Of a stretch of 38,530 nucleotides of DNA, positions 1-34,210 are shown piece by piece (positions within the stretch are counted from its first letter, which is position 1; each line of letters opens with the position of its first letter). A program made the translations under genes and the position numbers. The notes beneath the pieces are model-generated. The model did no database searches. It was not told the origin of the DNA and saw only the letters and a list, made by a program, of their open reading frames with translations. The stretch is taken from positions 1-38,530 of the IMG/VR virus record IMGVR_UViG_3300035698_032113, one strand, 5' to 3'. Source of the DNA: a virus.

Positions 1-77
1 GTTTGCACTCGGCAGCCCGCCATTTGCTTTGCAACTTCGCACTGGTTGTCGGGCGTGAGGTGTGGGCAATGCATCAT
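1..77 (-). CDS. Partial Cys-containing small protein, start only
   Basis: An ATG at 77 overlaps the TGA of the fibre-like gene as ATGA, the same coupling used by most late genes here. It reads leftward MMHCPHLTPDNQCEVAKQMA and continues off the edge with no stop. Only about 25 residues are visible, with three Cys (positions 4, 13 and 22), so a small metal-binding or disulphide protein is possible. I do not recognise the family. The reading frame is supported by the overlap, not by homology. It is probably the next gene of the tail operon. Confidence 0.5.
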   Translation of the reverse strand, partial: MMHCPHLTPDNQCEVAKQMAGCRVQ

Positions 78-3022
78 GCTGTCATCCCCGCTACTGCTCC
101 GTCGTATGAGCCAGACGAACTTGGTGGATCTCCGGGGTCTTCACAATCACTGTCAACCAATTCCCAGCCGCACGACCAGATCCACGTACTGTTGCATGGT
201 TCGCTGGATCCGCTGCTGTCTTCGGAGGGCACGTCGTCCGAGTCGCTTGTGCTTGGTCGATCAGAACCTTCGCTGTTGGAGTCGCTTTCGCTGGGGCGAT
301 CGGAACCGTCGTTGCTGTCGCTCGGTCGGTCCGAGTCGGATGTGGAGTCGTTGCTTTCGGACGGCGAATCGCTGTCGCTGCCAGACGAATCGCCAACGCT
401 TGGGTCGTCGCTAACACTCGGTCGGTCGCTGTCGGAGCCTTCCGAGTCAGATTCACTTGTTGATGGCGGGTTGGATTCAGAATCGGAACCGCTCGACGAC
501 GCTACAACGCTTGTTGAGCCATCGCTAACGGAATCACTGTCGGAGGTTGAGGTGCTCGTTGATCGAGAATCGGACCCAGACTCGCTGCCGCTATTGGAGT
601 TTGAACCGCTACCACTACCTGAACCCGATCCACTATTGCTTCCGCTGCCTGAATCGCTGTTGGAGTGCGATGTGGAAGCGCTCAGTGAGTAGCTTTGTGA
701 ATCCGAACTTCGGTCAATGCTTGATTCACTCGGTGGCTCACTTCCAGACTCGCTAGCGGATTGTGATGTTGATTCGGAAGTCGACTGTGATTCGGAATGA
801 GATTCGGATTCGCTTGAATCAGAAACGCTGTCGCTGCTTGCCGATGAATTCCAACTGTAGGATCGCGATCCTTCCGAGTCAGATTGGCTAGTTGACTCAC
901 TCTCTGACACGCTTGAAGCGGATTGGCTCGATTCAGACTTCGATGATTCGCTGGTCGATGACTCGCTTTCGGAGGCAGACGATTGCGAACTGCTGATGGA
1001 TGGTGTGCTGGTTGAGTCACTGGATTCGCTGGATTCGGAGCCGGATGAATCACTCGACGAACCGGAACCACTTGATTGCGAGTTACTCGATGAGGAGTCA
1101 CTTACCGATGAATTTGATCCCGACAGACTTGGCAAGCTGATTGACGTGCTGTTGGACTCGCTCGATTCGGATTTTGACGAATCACTCGATGAGCCAGAAC
1201 CACTGGATTGCGAATCGCTTGATGATGAATCGCTGGCGGATGAGCTTGATCCCGACAGACTCGGAAGGCTTACCGATGTACTTGAATCGCTCGATTCGCT
1301 GGTCGATGAGTCACTGGAATTGGAATCGGATGAACTGCCAGACGAACCACTCGATGCCGATGATGATCCATCGGAACTCGATGAACTACTGACGCTCGGC
1401 AGACTCGTGGACGTGCTTGAGTCGCTGCTCTCCGAAGAATCGCTGGATTGACTACTACTGGCACTGCTGGATGACTCACTTTCGCTGGAAGATGAGTCTG
1501 AACTATCGCTCGAATCGCTGCTGGATGCCGACGAACTGAGCGACGAGTCGCTGCTATCGGATGAAGAAGACTCTGAAGATGACGAATCACTACTCGACGA
1601 CGACTTCGATGAAGACGAGGAACTTCCGGAACTTGATGATGGGCTACTGGATGACGAACCACTGCTTGACGATGACGAACTGCCGGACGACGAGGAAGAA
1701 GGCGATCCACTGCTCGACGAGCTTGAACTTGATCCCGATGAACTGCTGCTGCTGGAGGATGATGGGGAACTGCTAGAACTCGACGACAGGCTCGATGAGC
1801 TTGAACTGCTCATGCTTGAGCTGCTCGATGATCCGTTGCTGCTTGACGAACTGCCTGACGATGAGGAGGACGACGACGAGGATGATGACGGCGACGACGA
1901 AGAACTGCTTGATGATGAATCGCTGCTAGAACTGCTGCTGGAACTTGAACTTGATGAACTGCTGGAGCTGGATGAACTGCTTGAACTACTGCTGCCGTCA
2001 CAGCAACGGCAACCGATTGTCAAATAGGCCGACGTGTCTTCATGGAAGTGGCAGACGATTTGCTGGCTGGCGAGCAGGGCGTAGTCACAGACGTTGTAGA
2101 CCGAGACTTTGACGCCGATCGGTTTCCACGACGTGCCATCGAAGCGAAGTTCACGCGCCGTGCCCCACGACTTTGCTTTCAGCCGTTTGGCGGGCTTGCA
2201 GAGGAGCGTTTGCTTGGGCGGGTCGATCACCCATGAGCGGTGACCGTCGAAATTGACGACTAAGTATTGGTCTTCATCGGAACCGTCGATCGGACCGCGG
2301 ATTCGCTGTGCCGAATGATTGCGTGCGGTGATGCGGACGGTCTCGCCGGCGGGATCTTCAACCGCTTGAATCTCGCCGTCGTTGTCGAGTTCGTACAGGT
2401 CGCAATCGGCACTGCCCGTTCGCATTCCCTTGCGTGCTTGGATTCCACCCTTGGGAACCTTCACGAAGTAAACGGGATCGGCCGGTCGACCTAACCGAAC
2501 AACCGCCCACTGATCGCCGGTTTCATTGGCATCGCGCCGCCACAGAATCTGTGTGGTGCCGTCGGGCTTCGATTGCATAATGTCGCTTGCAGTCTCGCCA
2601 ACATCGGCAAAGCGGTGCCAAGTCTTGGTGACATTGACTCGTGCGGCCACCACACCATCGAACACGACCCGACCGACTTTGTCAGCCGCGATCGGTTCGA
2701 TGGCAACCCCAACGCGACCGGTGTGTTCGTCTTCGGTTGGTTTGACGCACTGGATCGTCGCGTCGCGAACGAAGCGGGCCAGTTCAACGGGACCGACAGT
2801 CGGATCGGTAAGCGGTGCGTCAAACCCAACGATCCCGCCAATCGGAACCAACTCTTCCGTCGTGTTGTGAACACGGACCGTCGATGCATCCCGCAAATGC
2901 GTGCGTGGTCCAGCGCCGCCAGGCAGTCGGTTGCGATGCAACGCCTCGGCCGCCACCAACAACCGGTTGTATTCGGTCGCGGTGATTTTGAATTGATCGC
3001 CAGGTTTGACGCGTCGGGCCAT
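74..3022 (-). CDS. Fibre-like protein with giant Ser/Asp-rich stalk
   Basis: A protein of 982 residues. Residues 1-343 have ordinary composition. Residues 344 to about 938 are almost pure Ser with interspersed Asp, Glu, Gly, Asn and Thr, resembling the SD-repeat stalks of staphylococcal Clf/Sdr surface proteins. The last 42 residues are ordinary again and rich in Trp and Cys (C943, C951, C960), and a CRCC cluster sits at 338-341 just before the stalk, so the stalk is bracketed by Cys clusters. Ser is written with mixed codons (AGC, TCA, TCG, TCC, AGT). Three imperfect units of about 44 residues carrying SLPS-type motifs occur inside the stalk. The start overlaps the upstream stop as TGATG. 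Position at the end of the tail genes suggests a tail fibre or tip protein; that role is inference. Confidence 0.75.
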   Translation of the reverse strand: MARRVKPGDQFKITATEYNRLLVAAEALHRNRLPGGAGPRTHLRDASTVRVHNTTEELVPIGGIVGFDAPLTDPTVGPVELARFVRDATIQCVKPTEDEHTGRVGVAIEPIAADKVGRVVFDGVVAARVNVTKTWHRFADVGETASDIMQSKPDGTTQILWRRDANETGDQWAVVRLGRPADPVYFVKVPKGGIQARKGMRTGSADCDLYELDNDGEIQAVEDPAGETVRITARNHSAQRIRGPIDGSDEDQYLVVNFDGHRSWVIDPPKQTLLCKPAKRLKAKSWGTARELRFDGTSWKPIGVKVSVYNVCDYALLASQQIVCHFHEDTSAYLTIGCRCCDGSSSSSSSSSSSSSSSSSSSSSSSSDSSSSSSSSSPSSSSSSSSSSSGSSSSSNGSSSSSSMSSSSSSSLSSSSSSSPSSSSSSSSSGSSSSSSSSGSPSSSSSGSSSSSSSGSSSSSPSSSSGSSSSSSKSSSSSDSSSSESSSSDSSDSSLSSSASSSDSSDSSDSSSSESESSSSASSSQSSDSSESSDSSTSTSLPSVSSSSSSDGSSSASSGSSGSSSDSNSSDSSTSESSDSSTSVSLPSLSGSSSSASDSSSSDSQSSGSGSSSDSSKSESSESNSTSISLPSLSGSNSSVSDSSSSNSQSSGSGSSSDSSGSESSESSDSTSTPSISSSQSSASESESSTSESSKSESSQSASSVSESESTSQSDSEGSRSYSWNSSASSDSVSDSSESESHSESQSTSESTSQSASESGSEPPSESSIDRSSDSQSYSLSASTSHSNSDSGSGSNSGSGSGSGSGSNSNSGSESGSDSRSTSTSTSDSDSVSDGSTSVVASSSGSDSESNPPSTSESDSEGSDSDRPSVSDDPSVGDSSGSDSDSPSESNDSTSDSDRPSDSNDGSDRPSESDSNSEGSDRPSTSDSDDVPSEDSSGSSEPCNSTWIWSCGWELVDSDCEDPGDPPSSSGSYDGAVAGMTA
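209..1993 (-). repeat. Low-complexity Ser-rich coding tract
   Basis: This is the DNA of the Ser stalk. Its plus-strand face is full of GCT, CGA, TGA and GGA triplets, which creates many spurious plus-strand Leu/Asp/Glu reading frames. Within it, a 132-135 base period is visible: the block CTTGG or CTCGG after GACAGACT recurs at 1128 and 1260, and a related block at 1395. Mixed synonymous Ser codons argue that the protein sequence, not simple triplet slippage, is being kept. Confidence 0.85.
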
Positions 3023-18810: not shown

Positions 18811-18897
18811 GACGGGCTCCGTTTGGCGTGACCGCAACACGCCGCACACGTTGGCGACTGTCGCGAAGGCTTGCATGTTTGGCATGGTCGGCCGCAT

Positions 18898-18964
18898 GTT
18901 TCAGGCGGCGACGTTCGGCCAAAACTGGCGGCGTGTGGGGGTGAAAAGAAAGCTGGAGATTACT
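18898..18964. promoter_or_regulatory. Divergent intergenic region before the cassette block
   Basis: The minus-strand terminase operon and the plus-strand amidoligase gene diverge here. The stretch contains GGCGACGTTCGGCC, an upstream part of the cassette element also seen before later copies, and an A-rich GAAAAGAAAG run. A minus-strand promoter must lie here or just inside 18811-18897, but I could not assign -35/-10 boxes with confidence. Confidence 0.35.
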
Positions 18965-19060
18965 GAAACATTACTGCCGCACTTCGCTTGAGGTGTTCCG
19001 AAAGCCATGGCTCCATGTGCATTCAACAAACGAATTCACACGCCTTTCGGAGACCCAACC
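18965..19060 (+). promoter_or_regulatory. Cassette leader element, copy A
   Basis: First copy of the repeated leader. Core GCTTG at 18986-18990, 15 bases, CATGGCT at 19006-19012, then a spaced CATGTG, then TTCGGAGACCCAACC directly before ATG 19061. The AGCCATGGCT here is palindromic. It lies before the amidoligase gene. Confidence 0.75.
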
Positions 19061-19918
19061 ATGCACGCAAACAACATCGCCTTCGGCATCGAAATCGAAA
19101 CCCACATGCCCGGCACCGACGCCACGCCGATCGGCGGATACCACAACGGCTTGCCGGTTGCCTGGCTGCCCGCGGGTTGGAAAGCCGAACGCGACGGAAG
19201 TATTCGCACGCCGGCCGGACGCAAACCCTGCGAATTTGTTTCGCCGGTCCTTCGCGGCTACGAAGGACTCGCCAACGTCGAAACGGCCGTCGACGCGATC
19301 AAAGAACGCGGCGCACGGATCAATGAATCTTGCGGGCTTCACATCACGGTTTCCTGGAACGGAGACGCCGCGGCCTTGGCTCGCCTGATTTCGCTGATCG
19401 CCAACCACGAAAGCGCTATCTACGCTTCGACCGGCACCAAACGCCGCGAACGAAACCAATGGGCGAAGCAAATCAAAACGTACGGCAACAAAGATGTAGC
19501 GAAAACACGCTGCGAACGAGACCGCTACCACCTTTTGAATTTGACGCACCTCGCCGCCGGCCGAAACCGGATTGAGATTCGGGCCTTCGCCGGCACGCTC
19601 AACAAAACGAAATTGATCGGATACATCCAAATGATTTTGGGCTTGGTAGAACTCGCCCTCAATACGCGACGCTGCAGCGGATGGGATTACGCGAAGAAAC
19701 CCGGCACTAAGAGTTGCTGGGACCGACCGGACGCCGGCCACGGCGAAACGGAACTCAACCGGCTCTTCTACCGGCTCGGTTGGACGAAGGGTTGGTACAA
19801 GGGCAACCTTCGCAACAAACGATTTGGCGAACTTTCGGTCGGCGAACAAACCTGCGATTGGAAACCAATCAAAAAGAAGCTTCTCGACCTGGCCCGCAAA
19901 TACGACCAAGCGGTCTGA
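19061..19918 (+). CDS. Amidoligase (glutamine synthetase-like fold)
   Basis: A 285-residue protein matching the putative amidoligase enzyme family, COOH-NH2 ligases with a glutamine-synthetase-like fold. Visible family motifs: FGIEIET at 8-14 (metal-binding Glu), DGSI at 45-48, CEFVSPVL at 57-64, CGLHITVS at 91-98 and RIEIRAFAGTL at 170-180. Such enzymes are predicted to join a carboxyl to an amine using ATP, for example tagging peptides or making small amides; the substrate is unknown. The start at 19061 is set by a GGAGACCCAACC site and the shared leader; an upstream in-frame ATG at 19007 lies inside the leader and is unlikely. It is its own transcription unit, closed by a strong terminator. 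It may modify host or phage protein or cell wall. Confidence 0.82.
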   Translation: MHANNIAFGIEIETHMPGTDATPIGGYHNGLPVAWLPAGWKAERDGSIRTPAGRKPCEFVSPVLRGYEGLANVETAVDAIKERGARINESCGLHITVSWNGDAAALARLISLIANHESAIYASTGTKRRERNQWAKQIKTYGNKDVAKTRCERDRYHLLNLTHLAAGRNRIEIRAFAGTLNKTKLIGYIQMILGLVELALNTRRCSGWDYAKKPGTKSCWDRPDAGHGETELNRLFYRLGWTKGWYKGNLRNKRFGELSVGEQTCDWKPIKKKLLDLARKYDQAV

Positions 19919-19942
19919 CGGCCGACGGCCCTCGCCACACGC

Positions 19943-19975
19943 AACGCCGCGGTTAGCACCGCGGCGTTTCTTGCA
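19943..19975 (+). terminator. Intrinsic terminator after amidoligase
   Basis: Perfect 10-bp stem AACGCCGCGG / CCGCGGCGTT (19943-19952 and 19959-19968) with loop TTAGCA, followed by a T-rich TTTCTTGCATTCTTT. It lies 24 bases after the stop, so it ends this unit before copy B. Confidence 0.82.
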
Positions 19976-20089
19976 TTCTTTGCCGGCACGCGTGCAACGT
20001 GTCGCGTCAACGGCGTATGTGACTAATAGCGGGCGACTGTTTCGCATCGCGACACACGCGGCAACGTCGGGCCACGTTCGCGAGTTCGA

Positions 20090-20206
20090 GAAACATTCAA
20101 AAAGACTCAAGATTGCTTCCGAGATTCGCTTGCTGTGTTTTGAGTTCCATGGCTCATGTGTGGACATACGAAACGGTTTTTCATTCACCCAAACGGAGAC
20201 ACAAAC
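20090..20206 (+). promoter_or_regulatory. Cassette leader element, copy B
   Basis: GAAACATTCAAAAAGACT, GCTTG at 20128-20132, 15 bases, CATGGCT at 20148-20154, CATGTGT, then AAACGGAGACACAAAC before ATG 20207. Upstream GCGGCAACGTCGGGCC at 20060-20075 is also shared with other copies, so the element is longer than the core. Confidence 0.8.
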
Positions 20207-20482
20207 ATGACCATTTCCCAACTGATCGAGTTGCTCGAAGACTTCCGCGAACAACACGGTGACGACACCGAAGTGCGTTTGATGACGCAACAAAACTGGC
20301 CCTTTGAAAACCGCATCGCCGGCGTGACCAGCGGCGCGGAGATGAACGAAGCGAGCGACGACGAGCCTTGCGAATACGTCGACGACCAAGACGTTGCCGA
20401 AGACGCGATGGTCTACATCGTCGAAGGTGGCCAGATTTGCTACGGCAGCAAGCGGGCATGGGAAACCTGCCGCGACTCCTAA
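20207..20482 (+). CDS. Small acidic protein of cassette B
   Basis: A 91-residue protein beginning MTISQLIELLEDFREQHGDD, with a helix then strand-like TEVRLMTQQNWPFENRIAGV and a very acidic middle (EASDDEPCEYVDDQDVAED) before VYIVEGGQICYGSK. No membrane or signal segment. The layout (a helix of LL-x2-F-x-x-x-x-G-D-x-x-V, then qxxWPfexxIxGV) recurs in short phage and plasmid proteins of unknown role, from memory. Start chosen by the GGAGAC site and leader; an ATG at 20156 lies inside the leader. Strongly negative charge would fit a DNA-mimic or protein-inhibitor role, but that is speculation. Confidence 0.72.
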   Translation: MTISQLIELLEDFREQHGDDTEVRLMTQQNWPFENRIAGVTSGAEMNEASDDEPCEYVDDQDVAEDAMVYIVEGGQICYGSKRAWETCRDS

Positions 20483-20499
20483 TGGCCGGCCAAGAATAG

Positions 20500-20534
20500 A
20501 AGTTCGGAAAACATTCACAGTGTTTTCCGAACTT
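20500..20534 (+). terminator. Perfect 14-bp hairpin at end of cassette B
   Basis: AAGTTCGGAAAACA (20500-20513) pairs perfectly with TGTTTTCCGAACTT (20521-20534) around loop TTCACAG. It lies 18 bases after the preceding stop and runs right up to the GCTTG box of copy C (20536). There is no T-tract, so it may be a terminator without U-run, a bidirectional terminator, or a control hairpin next to the promoter. Confidence 0.6.
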
Positions 20535-20614
20535 CGCTTGATTGATTCGGCACCGCATGGCTCATGTGTGTCACCGAAACAATTCTTTCCCTTTCCGCAA
20601 ACGGAGACACAACC
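20500..20614 (+). promoter_or_regulatory. Cassette leader element, copy C
   Basis: GCTTG at 20536-20540, 15 bases, CATGGCT at 20556-20562, CATGTGTGTCACCGAAAC, then GCAAACGGAGACACAACC before ATG 20615. In this copy the 5' part is replaced by the perfect hairpin described separately. Confidence 0.82.
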
Positions 20615-20830
20615 ATGGCCAAAGCAAAAAACCGCCAACGAGTCGAAGACGCATACACCGCTGCACACATCCGGGCGTTGACCTTGCTCGAAGACATGCA
20701 CCAAACAATCGAGGACATGCCGGCCCCCGACGACGAACATTCCATCAATTGGGAACACGTCGGTTCGCTGCAGTATGTCTGCGAGAAGCTCAAGAAATTG
20801 AAGGACTTCGTCACGCCGGCCGGTGAATAG
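20615..20830 (+). CDS. Small helical protein of cassette C, paralogue of cassette G
   Basis: A 71-residue protein, MAKAKNRQRVEDAYTAAHIR followed by LTLLEDMHQTIEDM and INWEHVGSLQYVCEKLKKLK. It is predicted all-helical with no membrane segment. Its helix-W-x-HV-x-x-L-x-x-V-x-x-x-L pattern is shared with the 77-residue product at 23857-24090, so the two appear to be paralogues. Role unknown. The start is fixed by GGAGACACAACC; the upstream in-frame ATG at 20564 belongs to the leader. A GC-rich hairpin follows. Confidence 0.75.
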   Translation: MAKAKNRQRVEDAYTAAHIRALTLLEDMHQTIEDMPAPDDEHSINWEHVGSLQYVCEKLKKLKDFVTPAGE

Positions 20831-20850
20831 ATTTACTTCGGCAACACTTC

Positions 20851-20872
20851 GGCCGCGCCGGCAAGCGCGGCC
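20851..20872 (+). terminator. GC-rich hairpin after cassette C
   Basis: GGCCGCG (20851-20857) and CGCGGCC (20866-20872) form a 7-bp stem with an 8-base loop, 21 bases after the stop. No T-tract follows, so termination is only likely by analogy with the other cassettes. Confidence 0.45.
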
Positions 20873-20985
20873 GCCTCTCGTTGGACTGCCGCCGACCTTC
20901 GCCCGTGTCGCGTTGTTTCGCAGCGACTCGGCAAACCATGCCGACATGTTTGGTCGGACCACAAACGCCAACGTCGGCGAAGCTT

Positions 20986-21104
20986 GCAAACATTGAAAAA
21001 GACTGGGAATTACTGCCGATATCGGCTTGCTGCGTTCAAAAACGCATGGCTGATGTGTGTCACCGAAACGAATTCTTCCCCCTTCCGCAAACGGAGACGC
21101 CACC
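20986..21104 (+). promoter_or_regulatory. Cassette leader element, copy D
   Basis: CAAACATTGAAAAAGACT, then GCCGATATCGGC palindrome overlapping GCTTG at 21025-21029, 15 bases, CATGGCT at 21045-21051, GATGTGTGTCACCGAAACG, then GCAAACGGAGACGCCACC before ATG 21105. It shares its last 60 bases closely with copy C. GCCAACGTCGGC at 20968-20979 lies further upstream. Confidence 0.82.
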
Positions 21105-21404
21105 ATGGCAAACGCAAACGAGACCAAGACACCCGAAACCGCCATCCGAGCCGAACTAGCGAAACTCGAATGGATGATTCCCGACGCCCAACGCGACCTC
21201 GCCAAGGCCGCCCAGCAAATGGCCGCCCGCGCGATCGACGCGGTCAAACAATGCGAGGCGATGATGGCCGACGAACCTTGCACGATGGGTTGGACGGAGT
21301 TCGCCGAACAAGATGCCCGCCGCGCCGGCGAACTGAAAGCACGGATGACCGCGTTGTTTGAACGCCGCCAAATGTTGCAGTACCTCTTGGACACAAACGA
21401 CTGA
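21105..21404 (+). CDS. Small helical protein of cassette D
   Basis: A 99-residue protein starting MANANETKTPETAIRAELAK. It is predicted helical throughout, with heptad-like stretches (LEWMIPDAQRDLAKAAQQMA, RAIDAVKQCEAMMADE and LKARMTALFERRQMLQYLL) suggesting coiled coils. No export signal or catalytic motif. Family unknown. Start chosen by GGAGACGCCACC-ATG and the leader. It forms a single-gene unit ended by a terminator. It is the one gene of this block whose frame differs from the others, so its antisense openness is incidental. Confidence 0.72.
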   Translation: MANANETKTPETAIRAELAKLEWMIPDAQRDLAKAAQQMAARAIDAVKQCEAMMADEPCTMGWTEFAEQDARRAGELKARMTALFERRQMLQYLLDTND

Positions 21405-21429
21405 ACGCCGGCGACTTCGCCGCTTCGCC

Positions 21430-21474
21430 GACACGCCGCGACGTTCCCCCAACGCCGCGGCGTGTCTTGTTCGT
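21430..21474 (+). terminator. Intrinsic terminator-like hairpin after cassette D
   Basis: GACACGCCGCG (21430-21440) pairs with CGCGGCGTGTC (21456-21466), an 11-bp stem with a 15-base loop, followed by TTGTTCG. It lies 25 bases after the stop. Confidence 0.68.
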
Positions 21475-21542
21475 CGCATCGTTTGCCGGCCCTGCCAAAC
21501 GACGCAACACGACGCGTTTGTCGGCCACGTCGGGCATGGGAA

Positions 21543-21661
21543 GAAACATGCAAAAAGATTGCAAATTGCTGCGCGGATCGGCTTGATGCGTTTGAAATTG
21601 AATGGCTCATGTGTGTCACCGCAAGACGGTTTTCAAATCCTTTCTCAACGGAGACACACGC
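21543..21661 (+). promoter_or_regulatory. Cassette leader element, copy E
   Basis: GAAACATGCAAAAAGATT, GCTTG at 21581-21585, 15 bases, AATGGCT at 21601-21607 (first C changed to A), CATGTGTGTCACCGCAAGACG, then CTCAACGGAGACACACGC before ATG 21662. GGCCACGTCGGGC lies just upstream. Confidence 0.8.
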
Positions 21662-22315
21662 ATGACCAACGCAGCAAACGAAACCAGCTACGCCATGATG
21701 AAGAACATCTTTGAAACCCTCGAAGCTCACGCACCGCACGAAGCCCGCGACATTCGATCGGCGTTCCACGATGTTTGGGAGTACCTGTACTACTTGTCGG
21801 AATACCTTGACCACGCAGCAAGCCGACTCCATGGCGAACAACGCGAGGTGTTGACACAGGAATATCAGTTGGTGCAAACGGCGATCGAAACAATGAGCAA
21901 AAGTAGTTTGCCGGCGATCATGCCGGACGAAACAGAATCGAATTCCGCCGCGCCGACACCAACCGAAACGGCGGAGCGGAATGTTGAACCGGTACGCATG
22001 GAAGAACAACCGCAACCATGCGTTTCGCAACCGCCGGCCGCCGATGCCGTACAAGCTTGTTCGCGAACGACCCGAAACAATACGCCGGTCGCACAACCGC
22101 TTCCCGCACATCGCCGCAAAGCATCCGAATCCCCAATCGACAAAACAGCGGCAACGCTGCGAATCCTCGATCTGCTTCGCGGCGAAGTGGAAGGGTTCGA
22201 GTTCGACGGTACACACGACCCGGAAACAACGGAACTGTGTTCGCTCGCGATTGGCGACCTTCACGATGCGCTTCGTAGCGCCGCGGACGCTTTCTACGAA
22301 CAACTGCGACTGTGA
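21662..22315 (+). CDS. Two-part protein of cassette E, partial paralogue of cassette F
   Basis: A 217-residue protein. Residues 1-80 are helical, with EARDIRSAFHDVWEYLYYLS and LTQEYQLVQTAIETM. This part matches the 84-residue product at 22475-22729 in layout (IRxAxxxV/I, LSExL, LxEExxL/xEY), so the two look paralogous. Residues about 85-155 are a Pro/Thr/Glu-rich linker. Residues about 158-217 form a second helical part with TAATLRILDLLRGEVEGFEF and ELCSLAIGDLHDALRSA. No known domain. The start is fixed by the leader. Function unknown; repeated helical modules suggest protein-protein contacts. Confidence 0.75.
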   Translation: MTNAANETSYAMMKNIFETLEAHAPHEARDIRSAFHDVWEYLYYLSEYLDHAASRLHGEQREVLTQEYQLVQTAIETMSKSSLPAIMPDETESNSAAPTPTETAERNVEPVRMEEQPQPCVSQPPAADAVQACSRTTRNNTPVAQPLPAHRRKASESPIDKTAATLRILDLLRGEVEGFEFDGTHDPETTELCSLAIGDLHDALRSAADAFYEQLRL

Positions 22316-22333
22316 GCCGGCCATTGGATGGGG

Positions 22334-22379
22334 AGTAATCGCAGTCTTTTGGAAACATTGCAAAAGACTGCGGATTACT
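22334..22379 (+). terminator. Long hairpin after cassette E
   Basis: AGTAATC-GCAGTCTTTT (22334-22350) pairs with AAAAGACTGCGGATTACT (22362-22379), a 17-bp stem with a single bulged base and loop GGAAACATTGC. It lies 19 bases after the stop and overlaps the 5' part of leader copy F. The loop carries the conserved GAAACATTG of the leader. There is no T-tract after it. Confidence 0.6.
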
Positions 22380-22474
22380 TCCGAAATCCGCTTGAGCTGT
22401 TTGCAAACGCATGGCTCATGTGTGTTAACGCCGAACGACGGCGACCAACAAACCTTTTCCCCGGAGACAGAAAC
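22352..22474 (+). promoter_or_regulatory. Cassette leader element, copy F
   Basis: GAAACATTGCAAAAGACT, GCGGATT...AATCCGC (7-bp stem), GCTTG at 22390-22394, 15 bases, CATGGCT at 22410-22416, CATGTGTGTTAACG, then CCCCGGAGACAGAAAC before ATG 22475. The distance to the ATG is the longest of the set. Confidence 0.8.
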
Positions 22475-22729
22475 ATGCCGATGAACGAAACCAAAACCGC
22501 CCGCGCTAACGCCCTTCGCCCACTCTTCCGCAACATGGACCCGCACAAGGCCCAAGAGATTCGCCAAGCGTACTACGCCATCTCGGACAACCTCGGAGCT
22601 TTGTCCGAAGCCCTCGAGATCGCCGACCTCGACAACGGCGGACCGGCCGGCCCGCTGCTCGAAGAGCACTACATCTTTTGCGAACTGTTGCGAAGGTTCG
22701 ACGAGAGCGTTCTGGGGGCGATCCTCTAA
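22475..22729 (+). CDS. Small helical protein of cassette F
   Basis: An 84-residue protein, MPMNETKTARANALRPLFRN, then HKAQEIRQAYYAISDNLGAL and LLEEHYIFCELLRRFDESV. All-helical, no export signal. It aligns in pattern with the N-terminal part of the cassette E protein (helix with EIRxAxxxI, then LSExLE, then LLEExYxxxxLL), so one probably arose from the other by cassette duplication. First gene of a unit that continues with the HARE-HTH gene. Start by GGAGACAGAAAC. Confidence 0.73.
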   Translation: MPMNETKTARANALRPLFRNMDPHKAQEIRQAYYAISDNLGALSEALEIADLDNGGPAGPLLEEHYIFCELLRRFDESVLGAIL

Positions 22730-22751
22730 TACGCCGGCCGAAAGGCAAACG

Positions 22752-22769
22752 CCGCGAATGGAATCGCGG
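22752..22769 (+). terminator. Weak hairpin between cassette F genes
   Basis: CCGCGA / TCGCGG (6-bp stem, loop ATGGAA) in the gap after 22729. A second small hairpin CGCAGG / CCTGCG lies at 22813-22829. Neither has a T-tract, so the downstream genes are probably still transcribed; a full terminator is doubtful. Confidence 0.3.
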
Positions 22770-22879
22770 TTCGAGACGCAAGGACGAAAGCCGAAACGCA
22801 AACGGGCGTTGTCGCAGGTGGTGCCTGCGGCCTGACGATGGCAGCCAACCACGAACGAAACCCAAACGGAGAGACGAAG

Positions 22880-23374
22880 ATGAAAAAGACAGACGTAACG
22901 ATCGGTGGCGAGTACTTCGCGAAGGTCACCAACAAAAAGGTCACGGTCCGAATCGACGCGGAGAACCGCAGTGGCGGCTGGGACGCGACAAATCTTTCCA
23001 CCGGAAAGAAAATTCGGATCAAAACGGCCGGCCGGTTGAGTGGACCGTCCGGCAGTACCGCGGCAACCGAAACGCCGGCGACTGAGACGCGTTCTCGCAA
23101 ACGAGTCCCGAAGAAGAAAGACGCGACGACAACGCCGGCCAGCGAGAAGAAGCTTTCGTGCGTCAACGCAGCGTTGCAGATATTGGGCGACTCGACTGAA
23201 CCGATGAACGCCCAAGAGATGATTGCCGCGATGGTCGAAAAAGGTTTGTGGGAAAGCCCTGGCGGTAAGACGCCGCACGCCACGCTGTACTCGGCCATCC
23301 TCCGCGACATGAAACGCGGAGATGAAAGCCGGTTTGTGAAAACCGAACGCGGCCGGTTCACGGCGCGGGCATAG
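22880..23374 (+). CDS. HARE-HTH domain protein
   Basis: A 164-residue protein starting MKKTDVTIGGEYFAKVTNKK. Residues about 1-55 form a small beta-rich domain of the type GGEYxAKVTNKKVTVRIDAE. A Lys/Arg/Thr-rich basic linker follows. Residues about 95-164 match the HARE-HTH winged-helix domain (CVNAALQILGDSTEPMNAQE, MIAAMVEKGLWESPGGKTPH, TLYSAILRDMKR), a DNA-binding module also found in restriction and chromatin proteins. It probably binds DNA. Start chosen by AAACGGAGAGACGAAG; this gene has only the 3' ribosome-site part of the leader, not the promoter-like core, so it likely reads from the cassette F promoter. Confidence 0.8.
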   Translation: MKKTDVTIGGEYFAKVTNKKVTVRIDAENRSGGWDATNLSTGKKIRIKTAGRLSGPSGSTAATETPATETRSRKRVPKKKDATTTPASEKKLSCVNAALQILGDSTEPMNAQEMIAAMVEKGLWESPGGKTPHATLYSAILRDMKRGDESRFVKTERGRFTARA

Positions 23375-23383
23375 GACGTAGCG

Positions 23384-23617
23384 ATGAAATTCATTTGCGA
23401 CGTCCGCCAGGTCACTGACTTGGCCGAAGGAGAATCCGCACCGCCGGAGCCCGACATGGGTTACGAGTTGCGGTCGACCGCCGGCAACAACTTTGAAACC
23501 GGCTTGGTGGAGTATGTGGTCCGCCGCGGAGACGCGATCTTCGCGCGGACGACGGCTGGCGACGAGTTCGCGGTCACGGGCAAGAACGCCCACGTTTTGG
23601 TGCCGCTCGGCTTCTAG
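23384..23617 (+). CDS. Small beta-rich protein
   Basis: A 77-residue protein, MKFICDVRQVTDLAEGESAP, then PDMGYELRSTAGNNFETGLV and EYVVRRGDAIFARTTAGDEF. Predicted mostly beta; no signal or membrane segment. It lies 9 bases after the HARE-HTH gene and shares its unit. Not recognised. A terminator follows, closing the three-gene unit. Confidence 0.7.
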   Translation: MKFICDVRQVTDLAEGESAPPEPDMGYELRSTAGNNFETGLVEYVVRRGDAIFARTTAGDEFAVTGKNAHVLVPLGF

Positions 23618-23633
23618 CCCGAACGCCGCCGAC

Positions 23634-23668
23634 AACGCCCGACGTTTGCAACGTGCGGGCGTTTCGTC
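23634..23668 (+). terminator. Intrinsic terminator-like hairpin after cassette F unit
   Basis: AACGCCCGACGTT (23634-23646) pairs with AACGT-g-CGGGCGTT (23650-23663), a 13-bp stem with one bulged base and loop TGC, followed by TCGTCGT. It lies 16 bases after the stop. Confidence 0.7.
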
Positions 23669-23756
23669 GTGACTGGCGTAACGATGCCCCACACATGGCT
23701 CGCTAAACACGCGGCAACGTCGCGGGCTTACGGCTGCCGGCGAAAAACACCCAAGT

Positions 23757-23856
23757 CTTTTGAAATGTTTTGCGGACTTCGCTTGATGTGTTTTCAAAGT
23801 CATGGCTCATGTGTCGTTGTACGAACTGGTTTTCAAACACAAACGGAGAAAACAAA
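23757..23856 (+). promoter_or_regulatory. Cassette leader element, copy G
   Basis: GCTTG at 23781-23785, 15 bases, CATGGCT at 23801-23807, CATGTGTCG, then CACAAACGGAGAAAACAAA before ATG 23857. CGGCAACGTCG at 23710-23720 lies upstream. This copy has the most divergent ribosome-site tail. Confidence 0.78.
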
Positions 23857-24090
23857 ATGGCAAAGATTGAATCGCTCGCCGCGCGGCCGGTCGAACCGGC
23901 CGCGGCTTATGACAACGCTCACCAAATTTCACGCGACCTGTTGCAACACATCGAGTTGCAACTCGACCGAATGATTCGGCCCGACAACAAGGCACTGCGT
24001 TGGACGCACGTCCGAGCACTGAACTTGGTCAACGCTCAACTTTCTGAAGTCGCCGCATTGGTCGACGAAACCAACAACGCTCGCAACTAG
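23857..24090 (+). CDS. Small helical protein, paralogue of cassette C product
   Basis: A 77-residue protein, MAKIESLAARPVEPAAAYDN, then ISRDLLQHIELQLDRMIRPD and ALRWTHVRALNLVNAQLSEV. It shares the helix-D/N-x-W-x-HV-x-x-L-x-x-V-x-x-x-L pattern and MAK start with the cassette C product, so they look like paralogues. All-helical. Heads the last plus-strand unit. Start fixed by the GGAGAAAACAAA site. Confidence 0.74.
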   Translation: MAKIESLAARPVEPAAAYDNAHQISRDLLQHIELQLDRMIRPDNKALRWTHVRALNLVNAQLSEVAALVDETNNARN

Positions 24091-24100
24091 GAACACAGCT

Positions 24101-24322
24101 ATGCAAACCAACATCAAGGCGGGCGATCGAGTGAGGTTGCTTTCGATGACCGACGACCCTGATCCGATTCCCTCCGGCAGCACCGGAACGGTGGTCAGCG
24201 TTTATCCGCAAAGCGATTGGACGCAAGTCGATGTCGATTGGGACAACGGCCGGTCGCTGATGCTTTCCATTCCACCGGATCGAGTCGCAGTAATCTCGCC
24301 GCCGGCCGACAACACGAACTGA
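24101..24322 (+). CDS. DUF4314-like small beta protein
   Basis: A 73-residue protein, MQTNIKAGDRVRLLSMTDDP, then PIPSGSTGTVVSVYPQSDWT, VDWDNGRSLMLSIPP and RVAVI. This is the pattern of DUF4314 (GDRVRLxxMxDD/DPxP..G..GTV..), a small SH3-like beta-barrel family frequent in mobile elements. Role unknown. It lies 10 bases after the previous gene, with GGAACACAGCT upstream of the ATG, so it is translated from the same message. Confidence 0.78.
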   Translation: MQTNIKAGDRVRLLSMTDDPDPIPSGSTGTVVSVYPQSDWTQVDVDWDNGRSLMLSIPPDRVAVISPPADNTN

Positions 24323-24331
24323 GGAACAACG

Positions 24332-24652
24332 ATGTCCACACGAGCCATGATCGCAGTCCGCCGAAAAGATTCGTTCTACGACGCTGCGTACTTACATTTT
24401 GACGGATACCCCGAACACACTGGAGAAACCCTAATGCAACATCACAACACTCAAACGGCTGCCGAAACGCTGGTTGCCGGTGGCGAGCTTCGATGCCTCG
24501 ATCGTAAAACGGGAACACCGGAGCGATACGCCAACGCTCGCCCGCCAGCGATCTTGCCGAAGCATGATTCGCTAATCGAATTCGCGAAAAACTGTGGGGC
24601 TCAATACGTCTATGTCTTTGACGACGGAGCTTGGTCCTGCAAGGAACTCTAG
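24332..24652 (+). CDS. Conserved phage-type hypothetical protein (STRAMIAV family)
   Basis: A 106-residue protein, MSTRAMIAVRRKDSFYDAAY, then LHFDGYPEHTGETL, with a C-terminal YVYVFDDGAWSCKEL. The opening STR-A-x-I-A-V and the HxDGYPEHTGxxL segment recur in short phage and plasmid proteins of unknown function, from memory. It lies 9 bases after the DUF4314 gene with a GAGGAAC site upstream. It ends only 3 bases from the convergent methyltransferase stop, so no terminator separates the two. Confidence 0.75.
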   Translation: MSTRAMIAVRRKDSFYDAAYLHFDGYPEHTGETLMQHHNTQTAAETLVAGGELRCLDRKTGTPERYANARPPAILPKHDSLIEFAKNCGAQYVYVFDDGAWSCKEL

Positions 24653-24655
24653 CCA

Positions 24656-25966
24656 TTACCGCATGTTCTCCTCACGCTTGCCAACCGGGATCGGCGATTC
24701 CCCGGTGCGTTCGAGAACGGCAGCGTTGCCGGTGAAGCGTTGGTAGCGGTCAACGATCACGTCGCAGTACGGCGGATCGAGTTCCATCAAGAACGCCTTG
24801 CGTCCGGTTTGCTCCGCGCCGATCAGCGTTGAACCGCTGCCGCCGAACAGATCGAGCACGTTGTCACCTTTGCGTGACGAATACTGCATCGCTTTGACGG
24901 CGAGTTCCGCCGGCTTGCCGGTGAGATGTTCCAACTGTTGTGGTGGAATCTTCTTGACGTGCCAGAGGTCTGTCGCATTGTTCGGCCCGAAGTACTTGTG
25001 GCCGGCCCCTTCACGCCATCCGTAGAACGCCCATTCGTGTGCGCCCATGTAATCCTTGCGCGTCATCACTGGGTGCATTTTGTCCCAGATAATGGCCTGC
25101 GAAAAATACAGCCCGCTTGATGCCAACACGCCCGGATAATTTCCGATGTTGGAAAAGCCTCCCCAGATATAAAAGCAACGGCCGGGTTGCAAGACGCGAG
25201 CGATGTTGCCAAACCATGCTTTCAACAGTCGATCGAACTCTTCGTCGGAAACGAAGTCGTTGGCCAGCGGTCGATCCTTCGCCCGCATCTTCTTCGGCCC
25301 ATCTTTCGTCTTACCTTTGCCAGCCTCGAACGAGCTATTCCCGGCCGCGATCGCGTTCTTGCTGCGGGGCTCGACCTTCACGTTGTATGGCGGATCGGTA
25401 TTGCAAAGCTGAATCTTTGCGCCGTTCAAAAGTCGATCGAGGTCTTCGATGCTGGTTGAGTCTCCGCACAGCAATCGGTGATCGCCGAGGATCCAAAGGT
25501 CACCGGGCTGGGTGATCGCATCGTCGGGCGGTTCAGGGATGTCATCCGGGTCCGTCAAACCTTGCGTCACGCCGGGTTCGAGCAACGCAGCCAGTTCGTC
25601 CGAATTGAAACCGAGCAGCTCGCAATCGAATCCCGAGTCCTGCAATGCACCAATTTCAAGCGGCAGCAGATCGTAGTCCCACTGGGCATTCTCGCCGGTT
25701 CGGTTGTCGGCGATTCGGTAAGCGCGGACGGCTTCCGGTTCCATGTCCTTCGCAACGTGAACAGGAACTTTCGCAAGGTTCAAAACCTTGGCGGCTTTGA
25801 ACCGAGTATGGCCGACGATAATGACGCCGGCGGTATCCACAACGATCGGTTGGCGAAACCCGAACTCGTTGATGCTTTGTACGACGTCGGCAACCGCGTC
25901 GTCATTGATTCGAGGGTTGTTTTCGTAAGGCTTGATCCGATCAAGCGACCACATTTCGACCTGCAT
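24656..25966 (-). CDS. ParB-domain DNA adenine/cytosine-N4 methyltransferase
   Basis: A 436-residue protein. Residues about 1-125 form a ParB/Srx-like domain (DRIKPYENNPRI, then GFRQPIVVD and IIVGHTR). The C-terminal domain is an N6_N4-type methyltransferase with motif IV DPPY at 191-194 before motif I DNVLDLFGGSGST at about 368-380, a beta-class order. It would transfer a methyl group from S-adenosylmethionine to DNA amino groups, probably masking the phage from host restriction. Start at 25966 chosen for its AAAGGA site and the domain boundary; the frame stays open to 26143 but that stretch is low-complexity. No cognate nuclease is seen, so it is an orphan enzyme. It faces the last plus-strand gene tail to tail. 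Confidence 0.9.
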   Translation of the reverse strand: MQVEMWSLDRIKPYENNPRINDDAVADVVQSINEFGFRQPIVVDTAGVIIVGHTRFKAAKVLNLAKVPVHVAKDMEPEAVRAYRIADNRTGENAQWDYDLLPLEIGALQDSGFDCELLGFNSDELAALLEPGVTQGLTDPDDIPEPPDDAITQPGDLWILGDHRLLCGDSTSIEDLDRLLNGAKIQLCNTDPPYNVKVEPRSKNAIAAGNSSFEAGKGKTKDGPKKMRAKDRPLANDFVSDEEFDRLLKAWFGNIARVLQPGRCFYIWGGFSNIGNYPGVLASSGLYFSQAIIWDKMHPVMTRKDYMGAHEWAFYGWREGAGHKYFGPNNATDLWHVKKIPPQQLEHLTGKPAELAVKAMQYSSRKGDNVLDLFGGSGSTLIGAEQTGRKAFLMELDPPYCDVIVDRYQRFTGNAAVLERTGESPIPVGKREENMR

Positions 25967-26066
25967 GGCAGAGTCCTTTCCAAGGGAGAGAGAAATGGAA
26001 AGGGTTCGGTCGTTCGGTGGGTAGTTAGATGATTGGTTGGGTAGTTGGTTGGCCGCCGGCGCAGGA

Positions 26067-26273
26067 TTACTTATCAGCAGCGTTGTCTGTTGTCGTTTCG
26101 TCCTTCGCGTCATCAAATTCTGAAGAGAACGGATCGAGCTCAACTATCTTGCCGTCCCGCCAGAGGACGATCGGCGTGTTGTGCTTCCGCGCTCGTTCGA
26201 CCACCACCTTCCGGGTCTCTTTCATCGCGGCGTTGGCTTGCTTGGAGAATTCGCTTTGATTGTCTCGAATCAT
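26067..26273 (-). CDS. Antitoxin-like partner of zeta-type toxin
   Basis: A 68-residue charged protein, MIRDNQSEFSKQANAAMKET followed by RKVVVERARKHNTPIVLWRD and an acidic tail. Its ATG overlaps the toxin stop as ATGA. Small charged proteins in this place next to COG4185-type kinases are typically antitoxins. The toxin-first order differs from most TA pairs. Its family is not recognised, so the antitoxin role is by context. Confidence 0.62.
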   Translation of the reverse strand: MIRDNQSEFSKQANAAMKETRKVVVERARKHNTPIVLWRDGKIVELDPFSSEFDDAKDETTTDNAADK

Positions 26274-26869
26274 GGATTCATCTCCGGCGTGGTTTGTTTC
26301 AGGAATTCAAAGCGATCGTCGTCGGCAACAAGCAACTCGCCCAACTCGAAACGAATGATCTCGATGGGAGGCGATTCCGCTCCGTCAAAGACGATCCAAC
26401 TATCGACAATCGGTGTGTAGAGCTTCGCGAAATTGATGACACCCTGTCGATACCGACGTCGGATCGTTTCCTCGGGAATGTTGTGGCCACCTTGTTTGAC
26501 TCGTCCAGCAACTCGCAGCACAGCGAGCCTGGGACTCGGCAGCCATACAAACACCAGGACCACATTATATCCGAAATCTTGCTTGAGCCGATGGATACGC
26601 CCGGCGTGGGAACGACCGGCGAGCGTTGTTTCAAAACTGAATGTAACCCGATTCTGTGCCAGTTCATCAATCCGTTCTAGCATCAGGCGTCCGGCAATCA
26701 ATGCTTGAGAGTCTGGATCCGCCGGCGAAAGTTCTGCTGCGATGATGTCCGCGTTCACAAACCTGTCGCACGCAGCAAAACGTGAGAGGTATTGCTGGGC
26801 GAACGTTGTCTTGCCGGCACCATTTGGGCCGGCGATGACGTAAACGGTTGGATTGGTGGGCTCGCTCAA
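26270..26869 (-). CDS. Zeta toxin family nucleotide kinase
   Basis: A 199-residue P-loop kinase of the zeta/COG4185 family: YVIAGPNGAGKTTF near the N-terminus (Walker A GPNGAGKTT), FVNADIIAAELSP, SFETTLAGRSH and VFVWLPSPRLAVLRVAGRVKQGGHNIPEETIRRRY. Zeta toxins phosphorylate UDP-sugar precursors of the cell wall or act on other nucleotides. A TTG start at 26869 is likely because no nearer ATG fits and AAGGA lies 11 bases before it. Paired with the small gene downstream it would form a toxin-antitoxin addiction or defence module. The substrate is not visible. Confidence 0.85.
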   Translation of the reverse strand: MSEPTNPTVYVIAGPNGAGKTTFAQQYLSRFAACDRFVNADIIAAELSPADPDSQALIAGRLMLERIDELAQNRVTFSFETTLAGRSHAGRIHRLKQDFGYNVVLVFVWLPSPRLAVLRVAGRVKQGGHNIPEETIRRRYRQGVINFAKLYTPIVDSWIVFDGAESPPIEIIRFELGELLVADDDRFEFLKQTTPEMNP

Positions 26870-33415: not shown

Positions 33416-34030
33416 TTAGAAATTGGTCACGCCGTACTTCGTCAGATGCTCGGCGATCTCGGCACGCATCGCGTCGAATCGACGCCGCGGCAAACGGAAC
33501 TTCGCCATCGTGCTGCTCATGGAGTGACCACGCAGGTACTCGCACACCCGTCGCAATTCTTTGGGCATTTTCTGCATCGCAACTTCCAACGCGTCCGCTT
33601 CGTCGATCGCGTCGATCGGATTGCTGCAACACGACTGGTTTCGTCGTACGTGATCCTCGTCGGAGATTTCGCCGCCCAGCGTCGCGTAGGTTTCATCCAC
33701 GGTGTCGACCGGCATTTCAAACGACTGCATGAGCACGTTGTTGCCGATCGGGTGCCGTTTGTGGCGTTTCTTCGATCGCAACAGTTCTCGCACGCCCGAG
33801 TTGATGACTCGATTGATGAACGTGTTCAACTTGGACCGATCCGGGTCGTAGCAATCCGCCTTTTGGATCAAGTACATCAGCAGCTCTTGGGCGATGTCTT
33901 CGGCATCAGAATCGCTGAACTCAGGCCGCCGATGAAGTTGCTCTGCCTTCATCTGCGCCGTCTTCATCGCGAAATCGTTGAGAACTTCGTCGCCGAGCCG
34001 TTCGCCGTCCGTTTGAGTCGTTGCACTCAT
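33416..34030 (-). CDS. Sigma-70 family RNA polymerase sigma factor
   Basis: A 204-residue protein, MSATTQTDGERLGDEVLNDF. Region 2 lies at about 41-95 (DAEDIAQELLMYLIQKADCY, SKLNTFINRVINSGVREL), a good match for sigma core-binding and -10 recognition. An acidic/Cys linker follows, then a region 4-like helix-turn-helix at about 145-197 (MPKELRRVCEYLRGHSMSST, FRLPRRRFDAMRAEIAEHL). It is the compact ECF-like type. It would redirect host RNA polymerase to phage promoters. The start at 34030 has CCGGAGACACC-ATG, the same ribosome context as the plus-strand cassettes. Its targets may be the GCTTG-N15-CATGGCT sites; this is untested. Confidence 0.85.
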   Translation of the reverse strand: MSATTQTDGERLGDEVLNDFAMKTAQMKAEQLHRRPEFSDSDAEDIAQELLMYLIQKADCYDPDRSKLNTFINRVINSGVRELLRSKKRHKRHPIGNNVLMQSFEMPVDTVDETYATLGGEISDEDHVRRNQSCCSNPIDAIDEADALEVAMQKMPKELRRVCEYLRGHSMSSTMAKFRLPRRRFDAMRAEIAEHLTKYGVTNF

Positions 34031-34210
34031 GGTGTCTCCGGCTGGAGGCATCGAGTGAACGCGTCGTTCGCCGAAGACCGCAAAGAAACCGCGTCGCAAC
34101 AGACTGGTCACGAAACACGCGGGCGGCCGGCGAGGGGATCGAAGCGTCACATCCTCACAGCGAAGACGTGCCGCGACATTTCCTGTCGCTCAGCGACTTT
34201 TGGAGTCGCC

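Follow-up and report, generated by a model that had tools for sequence, protein, structure and literature searches.

The 38.5-kb virus genome IMGVR_UViG_3300035698_032113 from IMG/VR, analyzed over its whole length of 38,530 nucleotides (hereafter, the window), carries its late and replication genes on the minus strand. On the plus strand, eleven small genes occupy the interval from the small terminase gene, whose 5' end is near 18.8 kb, to a minus-strand gene (24656–25990) that encodes a ParB_N domain together with an N6/N4 DNA methylase. These genes form an array of seven units at 18.95–24.65 kb, each consisting of one to three genes and headed by a plus-strand copy of one and the same leader element, in the order AMD / D / T1 / M / H5 / H6+HARE-HTH+g8 / T2+DUF4314+g11, where slashes separate the units. 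A preliminary description of this stretch, made from the sequence alone, had proposed seven plus-strand units that share one leader and likened them to morons, that is, phage genes with an autonomous promoter and a terminator; all seven leader copies were indeed found, six of them as exact matches to the core. The carrier of the array is a temperate phage of Pirellulaceae (Planctomycetes). Single Pirellulaceae genomes (G043, G044, G045, G048, G049, and G069) contain two to four related prophages, each with an array and a sigma factor gene of its own.

The first unit, in the window as in nearly all arrays, encodes an amidoligase (AMD, 19061–19918; 285 amino acids, Amidoligase_2, Pfam 3.5e-19), preceded by leader copy 1 (18944–19060) and followed by a hairpin (19941–19972, fold z-score −2.4). 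Each of the next three units comprises one gene for a small protein: D (20207–20482, 91 amino acids, a first-gene family of 61 members), behind leader copy 2 (20086–20206, core 20128–20160); T1 (20615–20830, a helical protein of 71 amino acids, family T), behind leader copy 3 (20494–20614, core 20536–20568), the upstream part of which is a 17-bp hairpin (20499–20535), with another hairpin after the gene (20850–20873, z −2.3); and M (21105–21404, 99 amino acids), behind leader copy 4 (20983–21104, core 21025–21057) and followed by a hairpin (21430–21466, z −4.2). Leader copy 5 (21539–21661, core 21581–21613) precedes H5 (21662–22315, 217 amino acids, with an H-family domain at the N-terminus), and a hairpin (22340–22372, z −3.5) lies between H5 and the core of leader copy 6 (22348–22474, core 22390–22422). 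The latter heads a series of elements, namely, H6 (22475–22729, a three-helix protein of 84 amino acids, family H; AlphaFold2 predicted local distance difference test score 90), a type II hammerhead ribozyme (22789–22850), the HARE-HTH gene, which has no leader of its own (22880–23374, 164 amino acids, Pfam 2.2e-12), g8 (23384–23617, 77 amino acids), and a hairpin (23637–23666, z −2.8). The last unit consists of leader copy 7 (23739–23856, core 23781–23813), T2 (23857–24090, 77 amino acids, family T), a DUF4314 protein gene (24101–24322, Pfam 3.1e-13), and g11 (24332–24652), which encodes an uncharacterized phage protein of 106 amino acids (phrog_1987, 2e-22); the ParB_N-methylase gene is the right border in most arrays. 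In two relatives, oriented with the array on the plus strand (L241, 1190–4777, and L231, 789–4214), a piece with three tyrosine recombinases of the recombinase-in-trio type either separates leader 1 from the start of the amidoligase gene or lies within that gene, and a third relative (L242, 1175–4764, oriented likewise) shows a gap the size of this recombinase piece.

The assignments of the amidoligase, HARE-HTH, and DUF4314 proteins in the preliminary description all agree with Pfam, and its helical unknowns are borne out in that the other array proteins are small, mostly helical, and unrecognized. Family H has several paralogues in some arrays, and a fold search with H returned no useful match in PDB or among viral models. 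Family T may be related to two rarer families; a single protein family uniting H and T was not supported.

The leader core has the form GCTTGM-N14-MATGGCTNATGTG. Exact matches to GCTTGM-N14-MATGGCTSATGTG start at six positions in the window (20128, 20536, 21025, 21581, 22390, and 23781; 0.04 expected in shuffled sequences); the copy before the amidoligase gene, with GCTTG at 18986, carries one extra base in its second block (CATGGCTCCATGTG) and scores 33, compared with 68–89 for the other six. Weak first leaders occur also in a few relatives (L230 and L249). The window copies lie about 80 bases upstream of an ATG with a GGAG-type ribosome-binding site (RBS), and in most copies across the family the start codon, nearly always ATG and again with a GGAG-type RBS, is found 79–82 bases past the core start. 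A weight-matrix search of planctomycete genomes, run together with IMG/VR, identified a real family of about 450 copies, with none in reversed-sequence controls. The block-to-block spacing is identical in 159 of 159 copies, and in IMG/VR the core pattern with its N14 spacing matched 94 stretches, versus 3 for N15, the control. Among 84,980 genomes, matches came mainly from Pirellulaceae (Rhodopirellula, Rubripirellula, Stieleria, Aporhodopirellula, Roseiconus, and uncultured relatives), the rest being scattered singletons, about as many as chance would yield by an estimate from pattern length. A search of 12 host genomes for the exact 14-mer ATGGCTCATGTGTG recovered nothing but leader copies, all of them inside prophage arrays and in the orientation of the array, apart from a single copy on a short contig (G051:C189), which also matches the leader model; the backward control of the 14-mer gave 0 matches, and no host gene carrying the element was found in these genomes. 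The region before the small terminase gene (18817–18960, minus strand) is strongly conserved as well: it contains AAACATGC motifs, two in the window, 21 bp apart, and, in the window and in relatives, a long inverted repeat, TCGCGACA...TGTCGCGA; AAACAT motifs similar to AAACATGC occur in the upstream part of leaders.

The geometry of the leader resembles that of a promoter. The centers of the two blocks are about 24 bp apart, which is near the usual distance between the −35 and −10 elements, and upstream A-tracts recur approximately once per helical turn (about 10–11 bp), with maxima at −36, −27, −16, and about −6 from GCTTG. A search of the array found no sigma-70 promoter, which suggests that the leader is a promoter of a different class. 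Given this result, and because in host genomes the core is present only as leader copies, expression of the units probably depends on a factor from the phage, and the leader looks specific to phages rather than host-autonomous. Of the autonomous promoter in the preliminary description, the promoter-like geometry stands, and the autonomy is supported in part at most.

The near-constant distance between the leader and the start codon, which recalls the start-associated sequence (SAS) and extended SAS (ESAS) repeats of Cluster K mycobacteriophages (PMC3203893), would also suit an element that acts as RNA, either a protein-bound translation or stability element or a small RNA target within one long transcript. 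We consider this improbable. There is no base-pair covariation in the leader (105 effective sequences, with the strongest couplings between adjacent bases), and RNA structure was rejected on this ground as a general feature; a weak palindrome in the spacer shows no more pairing than expected; the phasing of the A-tracts suits DNA; and no complementary copy of the leader exists elsewhere in the window at up to 2 mismatches, so that a small RNA target was rejected. A leader peptide starting from ATGGCTCATGTG was rejected too, judging by the reading frames, which stop or shift differently in each copy.

Stable hairpins are present at six of the seven internal unit ends in the window (z −2.3 to −5.0), the boundary between H6 and the HARE-HTH gene being the one without. 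For families T and H and some rarer families, the hairpin overlaps the next leader; the overlap is confined to the upstream part of these leaders and fits the end of the preceding unit. The hairpins are candidate terminators.

The preliminary view of the units as cassettes would have failed if relatives kept fixed units in a fixed order, and it survives: arrays of related phages contain 2 to 11 leaders, the number and order of units vary, and breakpoints fall inside the leader. For example, marine prophages have the array amidoligase-D-T-H-T, compared with amidoligase-D-T-M-H-H-T in the window, and a freshwater group has amidoligase-M-H-H-D-T-W, with optional units. In five comparisons of relatives, we detected unit-length insertions or deletions (indels) of 372–558 bp, with the two ends of each at an identical point of the leader (558 bp at −39, 432 bp at +8, 372 bp at +6, 441 bp at +9, and 390 bp at +42), the pairs with the 558-bp and 390-bp indels differing elsewhere as well. 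Outside the core, leaders of the same gene in different phages are more similar (identity 0.584) than different leaders within a phage (0.526), a difference reached in 0 of 200 label permutations. Because the leader is closest to the leader of the same gene elsewhere and whole units are gained or lost, leader and gene are co-inherited, with exchange inside the leaders. Unit-length indels that break in the leader could also be expected from an integron-like array with the leader as the site of site-specific recombination; however, the break positions vary, which favors homologous exchange over a site-specific recombinase, no conserved structure is apparent, and each unit has its own leader and RBS, so that we regard such a mechanism as very unlikely. 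The amidoligase, D, HARE-HTH, and DUF4314 genes are present in nearly all arrays, and the base composition of the array is not foreign (GC content 0.570, against 0.570 and 0.561 in the flanks). Because four genes recur and the composition matches the phage, the array is a conserved frame plus optional units; of the modular accessory region envisaged earlier, the gain and loss of units holds, and the accessory character is supported in part at most.

The hammerhead ribozyme directly upstream of the HARE-HTH gene had escaped the preliminary description. In the window, it exceeds the gathering score of Rfam RF02276 (39.2 bits against 37), with the GAAA/CUGACGA core intact, and most relatives score higher; Rfam searches detected hammerheads in 13 of 13 further array loci and in L216–L218. 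Among 48 loci with a HARE-HTH gene, the ribozyme is present in all 42 where this gene is not the first after a leader (40 by motif search, L217 and L245 by Rfam) and in none of the six where it is (L211–L215 and L259). Five of these six have no ribozyme even at a lenient Rfam threshold, and L215 has none at the gathering threshold. The Fisher test for this exclusion, which used a previous tally of 41 of 42, gives 6e-7, which is a guide only and overstates independence because most of the six loci belong to related phages. The ribozyme and the leader thus appear to replace each other before the HARE-HTH gene. Type II hammerheads located between prophage genes have been proposed to cut prophage transcripts into gene-length mRNAs (Perreault et al., PMC3088659); the ribozymes described here resemble those in position and in the cutting that they would perform but differ in being associated with one gene, HARE-HTH, and present only where its own leader is missing. 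A search of a literature library found no publication that joins HARE-HTH with a hammerhead ribozyme and no study of such prophages.

A phage gene that might be connected with the leader lies 9 kb downstream of the array in the window (33416–34042, minus strand) and encodes a sigma factor similar to those of the extracytoplasmic function (ECF) group (Sigma70_r2, 6e-9; phrog sigma, 7e-11). The profile of its family matches chains of ECF region 2 and sigma region 4, that is, both regions are present; the phage record collection contains no relative of this sigma and only distant relatives of the amidoligase. Leaders were found in 13 of the 16 genomes searched. Each array checked (at least 3 copies, on a long contig) has one sigma gene of this family past its 3' end, on the opposite strand, 5–14 kb away. 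Of 199 genomes in the family, sigma and leader occur together in 41, sigma alone in 12, leader alone in 18, and neither in 128 (Fisher test, 6e-18). Only part of the leader-only genomes with single or weak matches were opened; two leader-only genomes (G168 and G178) have more divergent sigma-like genes nearby, the opened exceptions G101, G145, and G207 are truncated or degenerate prophages, and the extra sigma of G048 adjoins a serine recombinase, with few phage genes around. Phages with unrelated or distant terminases keep the leader and the HARE-HTH gene, and most of them also keep H, the methylase, and a sigma.

Taken together, we interpret the locus, with a probability of roughly 0.6, as an array of separately started small units behind phage-specific promoter-like leaders. 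The leader would combine a phage-specific promoter, consisting of a −35-like GCTTGA, a fixed 14-base spacer, a −10-like CATGGCTCATGTG, and phased upstream A-tracts resembling an UP element, with a ribosome-binding region; a phage factor would read it, and each unit would begin with the leader, continue with one to three small genes, and end in a hairpin. The repeated leaders would double as recombination seams, so that entire units drop out or are added in register. In unit 6, the hammerhead would cut the shared transcript, giving the leaderless HARE-HTH gene a 5' end of its own.

Several observations weigh against this interpretation. A number of other pairwise comparisons show scattered gaps instead of clean unit gaps. 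The hairpins have no U-runs, and a plus-strand terminator scan yielded one match, not above chance; of the moron terminator suggested initially, hairpins at unit ends are retained and classical U-run terminators are not, and because of the missing U-runs the hairpins are called terminators only putatively. The ribozyme exclusion rests on six ribozyme-free loci, at least five of which represent one phage type. As for the sigma family, its median identity is 23%, while the leader core is nearly invariant; a partial Mantel analysis of the amidoligase phages revealed no co-divergence of sigma and core once HARE-HTH or methylase distances were taken into account (partial r −0.14 and 0.05); and sigma and array may be linked only through common descent within a single phage type.

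The last points bear most directly on a stronger form of this interpretation, in which the ECF-like sigma of the phage reads the leader as its promoter and the array is its regulon. In favor of this form, the core shows phage linkage and does not resemble a sigma-70 promoter, every intact array examined has one sigma gene nearby, including those of phages with different terminases, and the departures that were opened come from truncated or degenerate prophages; the ECF-like sigma is the leading candidate for the reader, although we rate this possibility at somewhat below even odds. The sigma diverges far faster than the neighboring genes (mean distance 0.72, versus 0.22 for the methylase and 0.36 for HARE-HTH) next to a near-constant core, and it may serve the late genes instead. 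Over all 43 loci, a small residual association of sigma with the core emerges (partial r 0.11–0.12). Slightly less credible, in our assessment, is a reading of the leader by the host RNA polymerase with another conserved factor, be it a host protein, HARE-HTH, or the ParB-methylase, with moron-like expression of the array in the lysogen. The constancy of the core across phages suits a conserved reader, and in distant phages the genes for HARE-HTH and the methylase are retained alongside the leader and diverge in step with it; for a host factor, however, the lack of the element on host genes in the 12 genomes would be odd. The most far-reaching version, a self-contained phage regulon in which a dedicated ECF-type sigma and the HARE-HTH protein, whose domain also occurs in the delta subunit of RNA polymerase, drive a new promoter class, leader exchange swaps cassettes, and the ribozyme substitutes for a promoter within a unit, is speculative and rather unlikely to hold in full.

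Outside the array, the window encodes on the minus strand a 982-amino-acid protein with a very long serine-rich repeat (74–3022) and a P-loop protein (26067–26869) beside a small gene, which, from its sequence, reads like a zeta-type toxin.

The array brings together a phage-linked, promoter-like element that is sharply defined, in a phylum whose phages have seldom been studied, a cassette turnover in which breaks at a regulatory repeat are directly visible, and a choice between leader and ribozyme before one gene that makes the role of phage hammerhead ribozymes testable. The comparison with morons is largely supported: the genes are small, with a promoter-like start and a hairpin end, located between phage operons of opposite strand and variable among relatives, and the unit-length indels represent presence or absence at one site between close relatives. 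Conversely, several units are nearly constant and form a conserved core, the units stand in tandem behind one shared phage-specific leader, the composition equals that of the phage, and there is no sigma-70 promoter. Integrons, which have structured attC sites and a fixed crossover, differ in both respects, the leader showing no covariation and variable break points. Phage sigma factors with their own promoter class include T4 gp55 and SPO1 gp28; the array shares with these systems a gene set behind a non-host promoter-like element and a phage sigma gene, but here the sigma diverges while the candidate promoter is constant, and the dependence on sigma is putative. The SAS of Cluster K mycobacteriophages is a 13-bp GGGATAGGAGCCC that overlies the RBS and is scattered through the genome (PMC3203893), whereas the leader has a different consensus, comprises two blocks, lies upstream of the RBS at about 45 bases from the start codon, and is confined to one tandem array. 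Nevertheless, the SAS/ESAS repeats are the nearest described parallel: in both cases, conserved repeats mark the starts of a subset of phage genes, the host is essentially devoid of them, and RNA pairing finds no support.

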